Origin: Eubacterium sp.
GTDB taxonomy: Bacteria > Bacillota > Clostridia > Lachnospirales > Lachnospiraceae
Length of the DNA: 64,000 nucleotides
NCBI GenBank assembly: GCA_021769425.1
Contig: JAETSX010000016.1
Span: 1-64,000 of the forward strand
Reading direction: 5' to 3'
Positions 15,065-38,471 of this stretch are shown piece after piece (the stretch's first letter is position 1; each line of letters opens with the position of its first letter). The notes below the pieces were generated by a model. It did no database searches and was not told the origin of the DNA. It saw only the letters and a list, made by a program, of their open reading frames with translations. A program made the position numbers and the translations under genes.

Positions 15065-15197
15065 TTTCATAGTAAACTTCCATCATGCTTAGCCTGTCGT
15101 GCGACGGGCCGCATGGCCATCCATGCTGTGGAAGTCGAAGACTTTCATAGTAAACCCTCATCATGCTTAGCCTGTCGTGCGACGGGCCGCATGGCCC
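15065..15197 (+). repeat. 78-bp palindromic repeat, locus A (about 1.7 units)
   Basis: Unit boundaries are marked by TTTCATAGTAAAC at 15065 and again at 15143, exactly 78 bases apart. Each unit holds CATCATGCTTA, the hairpin GCCTGTCGTGCGACGGGC, the palindrome GGCCGCATGGCC and a second imperfect hairpin (CTGTGGAAGTC / GACTTTCATAG). The second unit breaks off after GGCCCC into a GCCCCA...TGGGGC hairpin (15194-15229). Other copies are at 21340, 30166, 33607 and 38312. Confidence 0.9.
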
Positions 15198-20524: not shown

Positions 20525-21349
20525 ATGGCAGGAGAATTGCTACAGTACAGCGGGCTGATTACCAAGACGAGAGCTATGCGCAGCCGGCTGTTGAAAAGAG
20601 AAGACTTTGAACGGATTGTGGAGTTCCAGACGGTTCCTGAGACCATTGGTTTCCTCAGGGAGCAGGAAAGTTACGGGAAGATTTACGGCGGACGGGAAGA
20701 TATCCGGCACCGGGGACAGGTTGAGGAATTGATTCATAATTCTGTGATGGAAGACTACCAGAAGCTGTACCGGTTTGGAAATGAGCAGCAGAGAAAGGCC
20801 ATGGAGCTGTACCTGCCCCAGCTTCAGTTTGGAGAAGCAGTTCCCAAGATAGAAAATTCCTATTTTACAGAGGTATGGAAGCAGATCGATAAATTTTCCG
20901 GCAGTCAGATGCGGCAGGTGCTTCGGGAAGTGTTTGGCACCCAGGTGGACTGGCTGAATATTATGTGGATGTACCGGGGAAAGGAATTTTTTCACCAGAA
21001 ACCGGAGGAAACCGCAAAAATACTGATTCCATTGCACTATAAATTAAAAAGAGCAGAGAAGCAGAGGCTCTTAGAGACAGAGCAGACAGAAGAGTTCTGC
21101 CGGATTCTGGAGAGTACGATGTATTTTAAAGGCCGGGATGCGCTGGTGAAGATGCAGGATGAGGTTTCCTACCATCAGGTTATGAAGAAAATGTATCAGA
21201 GAATCTGCCGGAAATATCCGGCCTCTATGGCTCCGGTATTTTACTATTTTTATGAGAAGGAACAGGAAATCGAACATCTCACCACAGCCTTGGAGGGGAT
21301 ACGTTACCAGGTTCCTGCCAGGGAAATCCAGAAGTTGATTTTACAATGA
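20525..21349 (+). CDS. ntpC: V-type ATPase subunit C
   Basis: Central-axis socket of the rotary ATPase that links the rotor shaft to the membrane ring. The protein has 274 residues, shorter than the roughly 320-380 of characterised homologues. It is mainly helical with the family pattern (YSGLITKTRAMRSRLL near the N-terminus; MYRGKEFF and a FYYFYEKEQEIEHL block at the end). It begins 3 bases after the preceding gene. The stop codon and last codons lie in the edge sequence of the repeat array at 21340, so the present C-terminus may have been set by that insertion. Confidence 0.85.
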   Translation: MAGELLQYSGLITKTRAMRSRLLKREDFERIVEFQTVPETIGFLREQESYGKIYGGREDIRHRGQVEELIHNSVMEDYQKLYRFGNEQQRKAMELYLPQLQFGEAVPKIENSYFTEVWKQIDKFSGSQMRQVLREVFGTQVDWLNIMWMYRGKEFFHQKPEETAKILIPLHYKLKRAEKQRLLETEQTEEFCRILESTMYFKGRDALVKMQDEVSYHQVMKKMYQRICRKYPASMAPVFYYFYEKEQEIEHLTTALEGIRYQVPAREIQKLILQ

Positions 21350-21668
21350 AAGCCCTTGGCTTTCATTGTAGGATGGCCATGCGGCCCGTCGCACGACAGG
21401 CTAAGAATGATGGGAGTTTACAATGAAAGCCCTTGGCTTTCATTGTAGGATGGCCATGCGGCCCGTCGCACGACAGGCTAAGCATGATGGGAGTTTACAA
21501 TGAAAGCCCTTGGCTTCCATAGTAGGAAGGCCATGCGGCCCGTCGCACGACAGGCTAAGCATGATGGGAGTTTACAATGAAAGCCCTTGGCTTTCATAGT
21601 AGGAAGGCCATGCGGCCCGCCAAACGGCAGGTTAAGCAGGGTGAATGATTACTATGAAAGTTTACTGT
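21340..21668 (-). repeat. 78-bp palindromic repeat, locus B (array of four units)
   Basis: Four head-to-tail units start at 21340, 21417, 21494 and 21571, each 77 bases, in the opposite orientation to loci A, C, D and E. Three units carry the stem CGTCG...CGACAGG. The fourth has CCCGCCAAACGGCAGG, changing both sides of the stem. Units 1 and 2 end in a perfect hairpin AATGAAAGCC/GGCTTTCATT. The array fills the gap between ntpC and ntpI and reaches into the ntpC stop codon. There are no unique spacers, so it is not a CRISPR array. Confidence 0.95.
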
Positions 21669-28794: not shown

Positions 28795-29763
28795 ATGGAA
28801 AAAGCGGAAGAAATGCAAGCATACAGGCATCAAATGCCTGCATATGAAGTAATTAATGAAGTAAAAAAAGCGGTTATCGGAAAAGACGACTGCATTGTGA
28901 AAGCCGTGGCGGCGATTCTGGCAGGAGGGCATATTCTTTTGAACGACATTCCAGGGGTGGGCAAAACCACCCTTGCAATGGCTTTGTCCAAATCCATGTC
29001 CCTGCAGCAGAACAGAGTGCAGTTTACTCCGGATGTGCTGCCCTCGGATTTGACGGGCTTTTCCATATATCAAAGGGAATCCGGCGCTTTTGTCTATCAG
29101 CCGGGAAGCGTGATGTGCAATCTGCTGCTGGCGGATGAGATTAACCGGACTTCCCCTAAGACGCAGTCGGCTCTTTTGGAGGTGATGGAAGAGCGGAAAG
29201 TAACGGTGGACGGAGTCAGCCGGAATGTTCCTTCTCCGTTTATTGTGATTGCCACCCAGAATCCCGTGGGGAGCGCAGGAACCTGGATGCTGCCGGAGGC
29301 TCAGCTTGACCGCTTTATGGTTTGTCTGCAGCTTGGGTATCCCAGTATGGAGGATGAAATTGACATTCTGAAAGGAAAGCAGGGCAAGGAAGAGACAGAG
29401 ACGGTAATTACCCGGGAGGAGTTGCTTGAAATGCAGCAGTGGGCAGATCAGACGTTTGTGCAGGAAGAGATTTATCAATATATCGGAATATTGGTAAACG
29501 CTACCAGGAACCATCCGATGGTGGAGCTTGGAATCAGCCCCAGAGGCTCTCTGAATATTCTGCAGATGGCAAAAGCCCTGGCTTTTCTGCGGCAGAAGGA
29601 TTATGTGGTTCCGGAGGATGTAAAAGATGTGTTTCTATCCGTCTGCAGCCACCGGATGGTATTAAATGCCAAGGCAAGAGTGGCCCGTATGGATGCGGAG
29701 CAGGTGTTAAAGGAAATTTTAAGGACTGTGCCGATACCGAAAGCGATAAAGGGAAGAAAATGA
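28795..29763 (+). CDS. MoxR-family AAA+ ATPase
   Basis: Cytoplasmic AAA+ ATPase of 322 residues. Walker A is GVGKTT (about 60), Walker B is LLLADEINR, sensor 1 is ATQNP, and the late GISPRG block is typical. MoxR proteins work as chaperone-like ATPases with DUF58 and von Willebrand domain partners. The next genes, DUF58 and a transmembrane transglutaminase, make the common MoxR-DUF58-TgpA set, often linked to envelope or protein-complex maturation. It is coupled by overlapping stop and start to a micro-ORF and through it to the DUF58 gene. Confidence 0.93.
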   Translation: MEKAEEMQAYRHQMPAYEVINEVKKAVIGKDDCIVKAVAAILAGGHILLNDIPGVGKTTLAMALSKSMSLQQNRVQFTPDVLPSDLTGFSIYQRESGAFVYQPGSVMCNLLLADEINRTSPKTQSALLEVMEERKVTVDGVSRNVPSPFIVIATQNPVGSAGTWMLPEAQLDRFMVCLQLGYPSMEDEIDILKGKQGKEETETVITREELLEMQQWADQTFVQEEIYQYIGILVNATRNHPMVELGISPRGSLNILQMAKALAFLRQKDYVVPEDVKDVFLSVCSHRMVLNAKARVARMDAEQVLKEILRTVPIPKAIKGRK

Positions 29764-29834
29764 GAAGCAGGCTTTTGTTTGCTCTGTTGGCTATGGATAT
29801 GGTGAGAATGAAAGCGGCAAAGGAAAGAAAATGA
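29760..29834 (+). CDS. possible coupling micro-ORF, 24 residues
   Basis: ATG at 29760 overlaps the MoxR stop (AATGA), and its own TGA at 29832 overlaps the DUF58 start codon (ATGA at 29831). The frame encodes a short basic hydrophobic peptide starting MRSRLLFALLAMDMVRM. The sequence AAGAAAATGAGAA occurs at both ends, so it may have arisen by a small duplication of the start region. Possibly only a ribosome bridge rather than a functional peptide. Confidence 0.35.
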   Translation: MRSRLLFALLAMDMVRMKAAKERK

Positions 29835-31036
29835 GAAATAAACTGTTCTATATGCTTGCGGCGGCAGGCATAGGTTATGTGGCGATTATTTATAACAGTA
29901 AAGGATTTCTGATGTTGTTTGGGGCTGCAGTATTACTGCCGCCTTTTTTGCTATACATGCTGTGGTATGCCGGAAAGCGAATGGAATGCGAACTTTTGTT
30001 TTCTCCTTATCCGGAGGAAGACGGCAGATACCGGGTCAGCCTTCTGGTAAGCAATCACAGCCCGTTTTATCTGGCGGAAGTCCGTGCAAAGATAGCGCTG
30101 AAACCTCTGGAAGACAGCAAAACGGCCCCTTTTGGCAGAAAATTGGCAGGGCACAGGCGGAAAGTTTTCACAGTCCCTTCTCATTATGCGCAGCCTGTCG
30201 CGGAGCGGGCCGCATGGCCATCCATACTGTGGAAGTCGGAGACTTTCACAGTCAACATTTCAGGGAGAGCCGGCGCCGGAGAGAAAGTGAAGCTGGTTGG
30301 AACAGCAGGCAATCTGGATTTCGGGCTATGGCAGGCAGAATGCCGTTTTCTTGCCTGTTATGACTGTCTGGGACTTTTTAGCCGGAAAAAGAAAGTAAAG
30401 CAGAAAAAGCAGGTAATGATTTTTCCGGCGTGTTATGAGACAAATATTCAGGCAGGCATCCGAACCAGACTGTTTCTGGCAGATGGGGAAGTGTATCATC
30501 CCCAGACGAAAGGAGATGATCCGGCGGAGGTTTTAAATCTGAGAGGGTATCAGAAAGGGGATCGGCTGAACCGGATTCACTGGAAGCTGTCAGCCAGAAA
30601 TGAGGAATTAATTGTGGCGGATATGAGTATGCCCATTGGATGCAATGTGGCGCTGTTTTTAGACGCCTGCACGGATGCGATGGCACAGGAAGCGCGCCGG
30701 GCTTACTGGGAGGTGGTGAATACGGTTTCCCAGGGACTGCTGACGCAGGAGTGTTTCCATTATCTGGTGTGGTACAATGATAGGGAGCAGAGACTGCACC
30801 GCCGGGCTGTCCGGGAATTCCAGGATTTGACGGATTTTTGGAGTGAGATTTTAAAATACCGGATGGGGCGGTGCAGCTTTTCAAAGGAGTATGGACAGGA
30901 ATTCCGGGGTGAAAGCTACGTGACCGGAATTGTGTGGAATCAGGAACTGGAACTGTATTGTAATGGAGAGTTTCTGGTGAAAGCGGAACCGGGACGGGTG
31001 AAGGAGCAGATGCTTGAGCTGGAGTTGACAGTATGA
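29831..31036 (+). CDS. DUF58 protein carrying an in-frame repeat insert
   Basis: Membrane-anchored partner of MoxR ATPases, 401 residues. Two hydrophobic segments near the N-terminus (about 5-45) precede a beta-rich region. The DUF58 signature is KGDRLNRIHWKLSARNEELIV (about 240). Residues 113-141 contain exactly one 78-bp repeat unit: FTV is repeated at both ends and the 26 added codons keep the frame. Without the insert the text reads KVFTVNISGRAG, consistent with a normal strand. Whether the insert is tolerated or harms the protein cannot be told from sequence. It follows MoxR and is separated from its usual transglutaminase partner by the restriction cassette. Confidence 0.88.
   Translation: MRNKLFYMLAAAGIGYVAIIYNSKGFLMLFGAAVLLPPFLLYMLWYAGKRMECELLFSPYPEEDGRYRVSLLVSNHSPFYLAEVRAKIALKPLEDSKTAPFGRKLAGHRRKVFTVPSHYAQPVAERAAWPSILWKSETFTVNISGRAGAGEKVKLVGTAGNLDFGLWQAECRFLACYDCLGLFSRKKKVKQKKQVMIFPACYETNIQAGIRTRLFLADGEVYHPQTKGDDPAEVLNLRGYQKGDRLNRIHWKLSARNEELIVADMSMPIGCNVALFLDACTDAMAQEARRAYWEVVNTVSQGLLTQECFHYLVWYNDREQRLHRRAVREFQDLTDFWSEILKYRMGRCSFSKEYGQEFRGESYVTGIVWNQELELYCNGEFLVKAEPGRVKEQMLELELTV
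30166..30252 (+). repeat. 78-bp palindromic repeat, locus C (inside a coding region)
   Basis: One full unit. TTTCACAGT at 30166 and again at 30244 are exactly 78 bases apart. The middle carries CAGCCTGTCG, GCGGGCCGCATGGCC, TCCATACTGTGGAAGTC and GGAGACTTTCACAGT, the same order as in loci A and E. Its hairpin is partly decayed (GCCTGTCGCGGAGCGGGC has two central mismatches), as expected if coding limits what can change. The frame through it is open and continuous with the DUF58 gene. Confidence 0.92.
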
Positions 31037-31926: not shown

Positions 31927-33606
31927 ATGGCATATTTAAAAAGTAAAACGCTATTTTTCACTACGTCCCCTAGAACGCCACTGAAAATGATTCCAGAAAT
32001 AGAAACGCTTGCGAAAGGCTTTGAAGGCAGAGTGTGGAATACAGATACACAGATTGCGTTTATTGAGAAATTGGCAGAAGGAAAGGATTTTCAGGGGGAG
32101 GGTTCAGGGAAAGAAATGGCTTTCAGTGCGAGAGATCGTATTAATCGCGCACCGAAAGCTTTAGGATTTCTTGATCTGAAGCCAACGATAAAATTGACAG
32201 AGCCCGGAAAGAGGCTGATTAGTGGAAAGAGGACAGAAGAAGTTCTGCTTCGGCAGTTATTGAAATTTCAGCTGCCGTCTCCGTATCATAAAGAACCAAA
32301 GCAATTGGAAGGGATATTTGGGGTAAAACCATATTTGGAAATTTTTAGATTGATTTATGAATTGGGAACGTTAAGCTTTGATGAATTAATGATTTTTGGC
32401 ATGCAATTAACCCACTATGAGAAATTTAATGATATTGCAGATGAAATCAGGCGGTTCAGGAGAATGAAAGCGTATGCTAAAGCCGGTTATAAAGTATTTC
32501 GCGGTGAATGCATGCGTAAAGAAGTAGAAAAGATTTTTCAGGAAGAGATTGATTCCGGAAAAACACAGACAAGAGAATCGAAAGACAAGTCATTAGATAA
32601 GTTTGTAAGGACCAAGGCAAGGAATTTGCGTGATTACACAGACGCGTGTTTCAGGTATCTGCGTGCAACAGGCATGGTTGAAATATCTCAAAGAGGGCAT
32701 TCGCTGTCAATTATGCATGAGAAGAAAGAAGAGGTGGAATTCTTTTTAAATGATGTGGATAGAAAACCAGTATTTGTATATGATGAGGTAAAGTATAAGG
32801 ATTACTTATTTGATGCGTCTTTGCCAATATTGTATTCCGATGACAAGGAACGGCTATTGACACAAGTTTCTGAATTTATGGAACCGTCGGTTGATTTAAC
32901 TCAAATTACGGCCGGACAGTTGAAGGATAAATTAGAGGAACTGATTCAAAACAGAAAAGCAGCGATTATTGAGAGGCAGGTGAGAGATTTAAAAGAATAT
33001 AAAGAGTATAGTGATATCATGAAAGTCTATCATGAAATTAAGGATAATTTGTTGTATGATGCGCCATTGATGATGGAATGGAATACATGGCGGGCGATGA
33101 CGATGCTTGATGGCGGTAATATAAAAGCAAACTTAAAACTGGATGATAGAGGGCAGCCCATGTCAACTGCCCAAGGAAATATGGCAGATATTATTTGTGA
33201 TTATGGGGATTTTGGAGTGGCAGTAGAGGTTACTATGCAATCAGGCCAAAGACAATACGAAATGGAAGGGGAACCAGTTTCAAGACATTTGGCTAAGCTG
33301 AAAAAAGATACTGGAAAAGAGGCGTATTGCTTGTTTATAGCTCCCAAAATTAATGAGTCATGCATTGCATATTTTTATGCATTACATATAGTGAATATTT
33401 CATTTTATGGTGGACAGTCTGTAATAGTTCCTTTGGAATTAGATGTGTTTATTAATATGGTGGAACAGTCATATGGGGCAGGATATGTTCCAGGTGCAGA
33501 TCAGATAAAAGGGATTTTTCAGTATTCTATGGAACAGGCGGAATTGGCGCAAGATGAAAATGAATGGTATGCAAAAGTAAAAAATAAAGTTTTGAATTGG
33601 TTGTAA
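31927..33606 (+). CDS. AlwI-family type II restriction endonuclease
   Basis: The protein has 559 residues. The N-terminus (KSKTLFFTTSPRTPLKMIPE and FSARDRINRAPKALGFLDLK) matches the AlwI restriction endonuclease family closely. The likely PD-(D/E)XK-type catalytic core is near NMADIICDYGDFGVAVEVT with a following Gln/Glu-rich segment (about 415-450). AlwI recognises GGATC and cuts outside the site. It is co-oriented with the methyltransferase and AT-rich like it. Its stop codon is followed within one base by a 78-bp repeat unit. The gene looks intact, so the system may be active. Confidence 0.9.
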   Translation: MAYLKSKTLFFTTSPRTPLKMIPEIETLAKGFEGRVWNTDTQIAFIEKLAEGKDFQGEGSGKEMAFSARDRINRAPKALGFLDLKPTIKLTEPGKRLISGKRTEEVLLRQLLKFQLPSPYHKEPKQLEGIFGVKPYLEIFRLIYELGTLSFDELMIFGMQLTHYEKFNDIADEIRRFRRMKAYAKAGYKVFRGECMRKEVEKIFQEEIDSGKTQTRESKDKSLDKFVRTKARNLRDYTDACFRYLRATGMVEISQRGHSLSIMHEKKEEVEFFLNDVDRKPVFVYDEVKYKDYLFDASLPILYSDDKERLLTQVSEFMEPSVDLTQITAGQLKDKLEELIQNRKAAIIERQVRDLKEYKEYSDIMKVYHEIKDNLLYDAPLMMEWNTWRAMTMLDGGNIKANLKLDDRGQPMSTAQGNMADIICDYGDFGVAVEVTMQSGQRQYEMEGEPVSRHLAKLKKDTGKEAYCLFIAPKINESCIAYFYALHIVNISFYGGQSVIVPLELDVFINMVEQSYGAGYVPGADQIKGIFQYSMEQAELAQDENEWYAKVKNKVLNWL

Positions 33607-33692
33607 AGTAAACTGCCATCTTGCGTGATCTGCCCTTTGATGGGCCGTATGGCCATCCATACTGTAGAAGTCGGAGGCTTTTAGAGTAAACG
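33607..33692 (+). repeat. 78-bp palindromic repeat, locus D (diverged unit)
   Basis: AGTAAACTGCCATCTTGCG begins directly after the restriction-gene stop codon, followed by TGCCC/TGGGCC, GTATGGCCATCCATACTGT, GAAGTCGGAGGCTTTTAGA and GTAAAC. It is more diverged than the other copies, with the first hairpin reduced. It marks the right boundary of the restriction cassette. Confidence 0.8.
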
Positions 33693-38311: not shown

Positions 38312-38445
38312 TTTCACAGTACCCCCCCCCATCATGCTTCGCCTGCCGTCTGGCGGGCCGCATGGCCATCCATACTATGGAAGTCGGAGACTTTCATAGT
38401 ACCCCCATCATGCTTCGCCCGCCAGACGGCGGGCTGAGCATGATG
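38312..38445 (+). repeat. 78-bp palindromic repeat, locus E
   Basis: One full unit and a second, opposed core follow the icd stop codon. The first stem reads GCCTGCCGTCTGGCGGGC: relative to locus A, the pair T-A has become C-G, a compensatory change. TTTCACAGT and TTTCATAGT bound the unit. The second core (38406-38445) is a 40-base palindrome with CATCATGCT...AGCATGATG around GCCCGCCAGACGGCGGGC. A run of nine C residues lies at 38322-38330. It may double as the icd terminator. Confidence 0.92.
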
Positions 38446-38471
38446 AACGTTATTGTTAAGGAGAGAGAACC

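Follow-up and report, generated by a model that had tools for sequence, protein, structure and literature searches.

A dispersed palindromic repeat inserted in frame into a DUF58-type gene of a Lachnospiraceae genome, with comparable insertions in genes of its relatives

How can a palindromic repeat lie inside a protein-coding gene without breaking it? The question is raised by a 64,000-nt stretch of DNA (hereafter the window) from a Eubacterium sp. genome of the Lachnospiraceae (G000), in which a DUF58-type gene reads without interruption through 78 nt that also belong to repeats elsewhere in the window. An earlier note, made from the letters of the window, had described these 26 codons as a copy of a dispersed palindromic repeat, with TTTCACAGT at both ends of the unit and FTV at both ends of the inserted peptide. 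The features concerned are the following.

28795–29763, plus strand: MoxR-type AAA ATPase gene, directly upstream of the DUF58 gene (Pfam AAA_3, 1.1e-56)
29831–31036, plus strand: DUF58-type gene, 401 aa, host of the insertion (open reading frame, Pfam, alignment, AlphaFold2 model)
30166–30174, plus strand: left TTTCACAGT, probably pre-existing target sequence (comparison with P. muris and G023)
30175–30252 (equally 30166–30243), plus strand: inserted 78-nt repeat unit, residues 116–141 (register with other copies, gap in relatives)
30226–30252, plus strand: terminal hairpin ACTGTGGAAGTC-GGA-GACTTTCACAGT, 12 pairs including one G-T (fold, family covariation)
30244–30252, plus strand: right TTTCACAGT, the unit's right end and a portion of the 3' arm of the terminal hairpin (sequence, fold)
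15065–15196, plus strand: repeat copy and truncated second copy, outside a long spanning open reading frame (longest 109 codons)
21337–21656, minus strand: array of four repeat units, spacing 77 nt
33601–33691, plus strand: diverged repeat copy, left end overlapping the stop codon of the open reading frame at 31927–33606
38312–38452, plus strand: repeat copy and inverted partial copy

The 26 residues in the DUF58 protein are an in-frame copy of a dispersed palindromic repeat. The two TTTCACAGT motifs lie exactly 78 nt apart from start to start, FTV recurs at residues 113–115 and 139–141, and the open reading frame passes through the unit without a stop over its 401 codons, all in agreement with the earlier note; the 9-nt duplication is the reason why the unit can be placed equally well at two positions. 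The unit is in register with the four other copies in the window, and matches the reference copy at 15065 at 80%; its frame remains open despite differences from a hand-typed consensus at 14 of its 78 positions. Tryptic peptides predicted to span the insert are VFTVPSHYAQPVAER, AAWPSILWK and SETFTVNISGR. The gene follows a MoxR-type ATPase gene, the usual partner of DUF58 genes; the window protein scores 22.8 bits against Pfam DUF58, slightly below the cut-off of 23.4, and all four members of a small alignment match DUF58 at E 0.001.

The dispersed character of the repeat is borne out by the whole genome (4.9 Mb in 228 contigs), in which BLAST returned at least 87 matches, a lower bound given that 40 of 113 first-look candidates were scored, and in which a 17-nt core of the repeat occurs at 181 sites (107 + 74) with up to two mismatches, against 0 + 0 for the reversed control. 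Sixty loci of this genome together with the window contain 152 copies of at least 30 bits, arranged in 72 clusters. When ten more loci are included, full-length copies number 151; the unit is 78 nt long in 95 of them and 77 nt in 48, and since 78 nt is the commonest length, it is not special to the DUF58 gene. The spacing of 77 nt that the note had read in the array is found at 21337–21644. Several contigs (L110, L134 and L145) start within a repeat copy or an array. The assembly may thus be interrupted at arrays, in which case the count given here may fall short of the real number of copies.

Two hairpins are predicted in the repeat, and both exceed column shuffles in pairing and in two-sided changes. 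Specifically, among 161 distinct near-full copies (of 195 aligned from G000, G021 and G023; 200 shuffles), with related copies weighted equally and stems taken from the consensus, the terminal hairpin is 97.1% paired (shuffle maximum 95.1%) with 64 compensatory cells (maximum 36), and the core hairpin is 90.9% paired (maximum 89.5%) with 56 compensatory cells (maximum 43). At three loci (L111, L133 and L130), an inverted piece of the unit follows the right end and lengthens the terminal hairpin.

A repeat match at E ≤0.001 was obtained in 13 of the 29 genomes of the genus, the repeat-rich ones being G000, G021 and G023 (78, 54 and 44 matches) and the others holding 0–6. A sample of 299 genomes, almost all of them from the family's other genera and with at most three candidates scored per genome, yielded the repeat in G000 and otherwise a single weak match of 30 nt. 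From these comparisons, the repeat appears essentially confined to one genus of Lachnospiraceae. Rfam gave 0 matches in the window at gathering thresholds, plasmid and phage records gave no match to the repeat at E 1e-3, and viral contigs held no exact match to its 32-nt core; among the open-licence papers listed (in two of the lists, the best 20 of 1,535 and the best 10 of 81), none was seen to describe this repeat or to report palindromic elements in frame in genes of Lachnospiraceae.

If the 26 residues were inserted, close relatives should show a gap, and all 22 aligned DUF58 relatives of the same genus do (33 open reading frame rows, minus the query, three duplicates and seven partial or distant proteins); the same residues in a repeat-free genome, which the note had named as the observation that would speak against an insertion, were not seen among these 22. 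The nearest relative, G023, has GKVFKVKLSGRAG at the place of RKVFTV-[26]-NISGRAG in the window; Petralouisia muris (L032) reads KEKYTVKIAGR at this place, and G015 gives an identical match row. In the DNA at the place of the left TTTCACAGT, P. muris has TATACCGT and G023 has TTTAAAGT, and a site close to TTTCACAGT was therefore probably present before the insertion. The statement in the note that removal of the unit leaves a continuous DUF58 text holds in so far as relatives lack the 26 residues; it does not hold as collinearity with every relative, given that the loop varies in length and that, compared with P. muris, the window protein has 14 more residues besides the unit, placed just upstream of it, and G023 has 25 more. 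Such a variable loop could be taken to mean that the DUF58 protein has long had these 26 residues of its own, and that the repeat arose from the gene or resembles it by chance, but with none of the 22 relatives carrying them, 181 core sites in the genome, examined clusters mostly outside genes and a unit bounded by the repeat's own ends, this possibility is so improbable as to be nearly negligible. The evidence points instead to insertion of the repeat into the gene.

The older expansion of the same loop (window residues 96–110; about 1770–1870 of L035) differs between the G000 and G023 versions. An origin of these 14–25 residues as a decayed repeat copy is not supported: neither the G023 nor the window segment received a score from nhmmer run at full sensitivity, and 2 of 500 shuffled versions of the G023 segment did receive one (negative).

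An AlphaFold2 model of the DUF58 protein, built from four sequences (mean pLDDT 54.8), predicts two N-terminal helices, a beta-sandwich and then the DUF58 region. Much of the beta-sandwich is fairly confident, with several 10-residue blocks at pLDDT 77–88, and the insert falls within a 46-residue loop that joins the strands at 81–92 and 139–147 and is effectively unmodelled (pLDDT about 27). The model would thus place the insertion between beta strands.

Two properties keep the frame of the DUF58 gene: 78 nt divides evenly by three, and this copy lacks the stop that most copies have in that frame. Among the 151 full-length copies of G000, this frame (frame A) contains a stop in 111 and is open in 40, so that an open frame alone is unremarkable; another frame is open in 112. 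One could envision that the insertion is real and the gene is becoming a pseudogene, with a frame open by luck (78 = 3 × 26) and a non-working protein: the insertion occurs in one genome alone, chance openness is not rare, and elsewhere a copy occupies a broken LacI-family gene. We regard this outcome as unlikely, considering that the open reading frame runs for 401 codons without a stop, that dN/dS is 0.17 against G023 and 0.14 against G015 (range 0.14–0.21; Nei–Gojobori, gap columns excluded), even though these values are averages including the time before the insertion, that a unit with 14 of 78 differences from the typed consensus and an open frame does not look brand-new, and that the G021/G024 case described below suggests a unit held in frame across two species. 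The DUF58 gene, having gained 26 codons, would then not be broken, and its protein apparently tolerates the added residues. Given that the window's species is represented by one genome, the insert may be one strain's peculiarity, or slightly harmful.

Copies in other coding regions, a search for which the note had raised as a check, were sought with peptides of the repeat's frames in long open frames. In G023, the N-terminal tail of an alpha/beta hydrolase (Pfam Hydrolase_4, 2.4e-18) contains three tandem 78-nt units, an insert of 234 nt or 78 residues that is wholly in frame and open and is flanked by AAAAAA-ATAGTA and AAAGCGGCAGG. Its orthologue in G000, with 91% amino acid identity outside the insert, has an empty site, the junction of which reads AAAAAAATAATA/AAAGCGGCAGG in both G000 and G015 (context AAGAAAAAAATAATA/AAAGCGGCAGG in both). 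The N-terminal MRTAKEKRSKKK is common to G023 and relatives (the G000 version is MKTAKEKRNKKK), and the stretch from the insert to the membrane segment is free of Met; the start codon of the G023 hydrolase has therefore probably not moved. The hydrolase has a dN/dS of 0.09–0.10 (Nei–Gojobori, gap columns excluded). This filled/empty pair is the cleanest evidence for a coding insertion. It also bears on a possible assembly or binning artefact, which the 228 contigs of G000, several of them starting within the repeat, might bring to mind: the second case lies in another assembly and has a clean empty site in G000, and in the DUF58 gene a single 78-nt copy in unique sequence, with 14 consensus differences, is unlike a mis-join. 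An artefact is, in our estimation, very improbable, and we retain genuine insertion in both genes.

A third case is probable. A membrane protein of 750 aa in G021, with no Pfam match, starts MSEKQRM-KPSVRRAAWPSILWKSRTFIV-ILALS, in which KPSVRRAAWPSILWKSRTFIV comes from a partial unit of 61 nt, again in the frame used by the other two cases. This protein was matched in 19 genomes; among the 12 proteins compared (G021 included), a related tail beyond G021 is found only in G024 (SVVQQNTGLLWKSKSFLIV), and the remaining ten have shorter tails, by eye. Against the repeat profile, the DNA of the G024 tail reaches 12.6 bits (nhmmer, E 5.6e-5 in 1600 nt), and because this score is weak the case stays probable: the tail is probably a decayed repeat copy at the G021 insertion place, and the simplest reading, likewise probable, would be one insertion that predates the split of G021 and G024, after which the palindrome decayed and the frame was retained. 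The dN/dS of the membrane protein is 0.13 (same method).

All three coding cases use one frame, giving a peptide of the form ...RRAAWPS.LWK...F.V (ERAAWPSILWK in DUF58). In G000, this frame is the less often open one (40 vs 112 of 151); many G023 copies have the first frame open, and the use of one frame in all three cases may therefore carry little weight. The lengths are in line with the note's argument that a 78-bp unit is frame-neutral and a 77-bp unit is not, the in-frame cases being of 78 nt, 234 nt and an in-frame partial unit. Conversely, a 77-nt copy in a LacI-family gene (L139, G000:C146:4850-8850, 1973–2053; Pfam LacI 1.7e-10 upstream of the copy) shifts the frame and reaches a stop. 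Given the further frame changes in this gene, its loss is not necessarily due to the repeat, and the gene may have been broken independently.

The coding census covered 72 clusters of G000 in 61 sources, compared with 181 core sites in the genome, whose places are given among the matches listed, for the first 100 of 181; open frames were searched in three of six frames among the matches listed, the frame-A set being complete for G021 and G023 (78 + 59 matches), and the census detects coding copies less decayed than that of G024. With at least 100 open codons required on both sides, the DUF58 copy stands alone among the 72 clusters. Nearly all the others lie outside recognisable genes or just 5' of apparent start codons; coding insertions are therefore rare and look like rare survivors. 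Several candidates were rejected by eye: in L153 (Pfam Metalloenzyme), L155 (2-Hacid_dh), L154, L157 and L102 (Pfam Sigma70_r2) the copy lies upstream of the apparent start codon, and in L159 the open reading frame looks spurious. The open frames across copies in L100 and L135 gave no Pfam match. In L174 (G023:C38:29500-34000), a unit at 2282–2364 carries an in-frame TAG between two open stretches, perhaps one gene, neither piece of which has a Pfam match.

The flanks of the repeat suggest how it may enter such sites. Its two ends are AAACTCCCATCATGC... and ...GACTTTCATAGT. Among left flanks of G000 copies (n = 80), A, G and T occupy positions −3 to −1 at 86%, 76% and 81%, preceded by a weaker TTTCAT; the right end, CTTTCATAGT, is strongly conserved (88–100% per position at −9 to −1), and right sides (n = 75) begin with A at +1 (95%) and +2 (84%). 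Right ends resemble their own left flanks modestly (458 matches vs 444.6 in shuffles, 72 pairs, p 0.0012), and the AGT/AA common to both repeat ends could be a target duplication or the element's own part. We propose that the 77/78-bp palindromic repeat enters short sites resembling its right end (about TTTCATAGT^AA), that a TTTCACAGT-like site already present in the DUF58 gene, in the inter-strand loop, received one copy of 78 bp, and that the same process would have acted in the genes of relatives (hydrolase tail of G023 with three units, membrane-protein tail of G021 with a partial unit, decayed in G024). Insertion beside a right-end-like site would also explain the head-to-tail arrays.

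The movement itself would be a target-specific transposition driven by an enzyme. Instead of transposition, short sites that match one another could have spread the repeat through template switching or ectopic gene conversion, a possibility to which we give real but clearly lesser weight: target sites that resemble the repeat's end and the inverted unit pieces after some right ends (L111, L133, L130) fit it, and the one transposase family tested (Y1) gave no candidate, but the sharp and reproducible ends (88–100% at −9 to −1) fit an enzyme better. We therefore keep target-specific transposition as the preferred mode. Y1 transposase (Pfam Y1_Tnp, PF01797) is not supported as the mover: G023 has 0 matches and G021 one fragment below the cut-off, both genomes being repeat-rich. 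G000 has five Y1_Tnp matches; incomplete assemblies limit such counts.

Insertions, empty sites, kept frames and purifying selection since the species separated emerge from the sequence comparisons themselves, and the open frames and dN/dS values of 0.09–0.21 suggest that the peptides are translated and tolerated; dN/dS spans the whole time since the species separated and is therefore no proof of function after insertion. The best explanation overall, which we hold with high confidence, is insertion at target-like sites with the frame kept and the peptides apparently translated and tolerated, in several genes. Far more tentatively, and with considerable doubt, a frame-neutral palindromic cassette might, in bacteria of this genus, repeatedly extend membrane-protein tails and loops in one reading frame, sometimes multiplying within a gene; a selfish repeat would then supply Firmicutes with new peptide modules, without any link to Rickettsia.

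Several known systems invite comparison. REP/BIME elements are short imperfect hairpins with high extragenic copy number, tandem and inverted arrangements and short target resemblance, and are moved by RAYT (Y1 tyrosine) transposases; REP-like elements undergo target-guided movement. The Lachnospiraceae repeat is similar in its short hairpins kept by compensatory change, its tandem and inverted copies, its extragenic location and its target resemblance, and its proposed insertion beside a right-end-like site resembles target-guided movement of REP-like elements. By contrast with the REP/RAYT pairing, Y1_Tnp is absent from repeat-rich G023 and present as a fragment alone in G021.

Closer in behaviour are the Rickettsia palindromic elements (RPE), described in PMC10969869 as dispersed palindromic repeats of about 150 bp that lie in frame in unrelated protein genes and add peptides to them, with nearly half of the R. 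conorii copies in open reading frames; sequences like the Wolbachia palindromic elements (WPE) are likewise described in frame in Wolbachia genes (PMC4224334). As far as these descriptions go, the Lachnospiraceae repeat is alike in lying in frame in unrelated genes (DUF58 in G000, hydrolase in G023, membrane protein in G021/G024), and differs in its length of 77/78 bp, about half that of RPE, in its phylum, Firmicutes, in being nearly always outside recognisable genes and in one gene with three tandem units. Elements of other kinds also enter genes: the enterobacterial RU (RU-1, RU-2 and RU-3) are small mobile repeats with open frames in annotated gene loci (PMC2759123), and intragenic ERIC elements are known (PMC10969869); at 103–168 bp and in other bacteria, both differ from the 77/78-bp repeat. 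Non-autonomous MITEs are short, hairpin-forming, present in high copy number and mainly extragenic (in part after PMC10969869), and in these respects the Lachnospiraceae repeat, short and hairpin-forming with many mainly extragenic copies, is similar. In-frame palindromic elements are thus already known; what appears new is a Lachnospiraceae repeat with RPE-like behaviour, set beside RPE by their descriptions. It apparently works like RPE, a likeness of behaviour and not of sequence comparison.

In-frame palindromic elements are best known from the reduced intracellular genomes of Rickettsia and Wolbachia, where weak selection offers an easy explanation. An RPE-like insertion would now be present in a gut-associated clade, in a genome of 4.9 Mb. 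Two sequenced species provide a clean empty/filled pair, and another insertion is apparently of such age that two species (G021/G024) have it in common. The absorption of mobile DNA by proteins thereby becomes open to test in a bacterium other than an endosymbiont.

Two further observations concern the surroundings of the repeat. The copy at 33601–33691 may supply the stop codon of the open reading frame at 31927–33606, and in G023 a gene that by eye resembles phosphofructokinase genes (L175) likewise terminates at a repeat copy. The window also contains, at 431–838, a separate direct-repeat family with 102-nt copies and 51- and 102-nt spacing, unrelated to the palindromic repeat.
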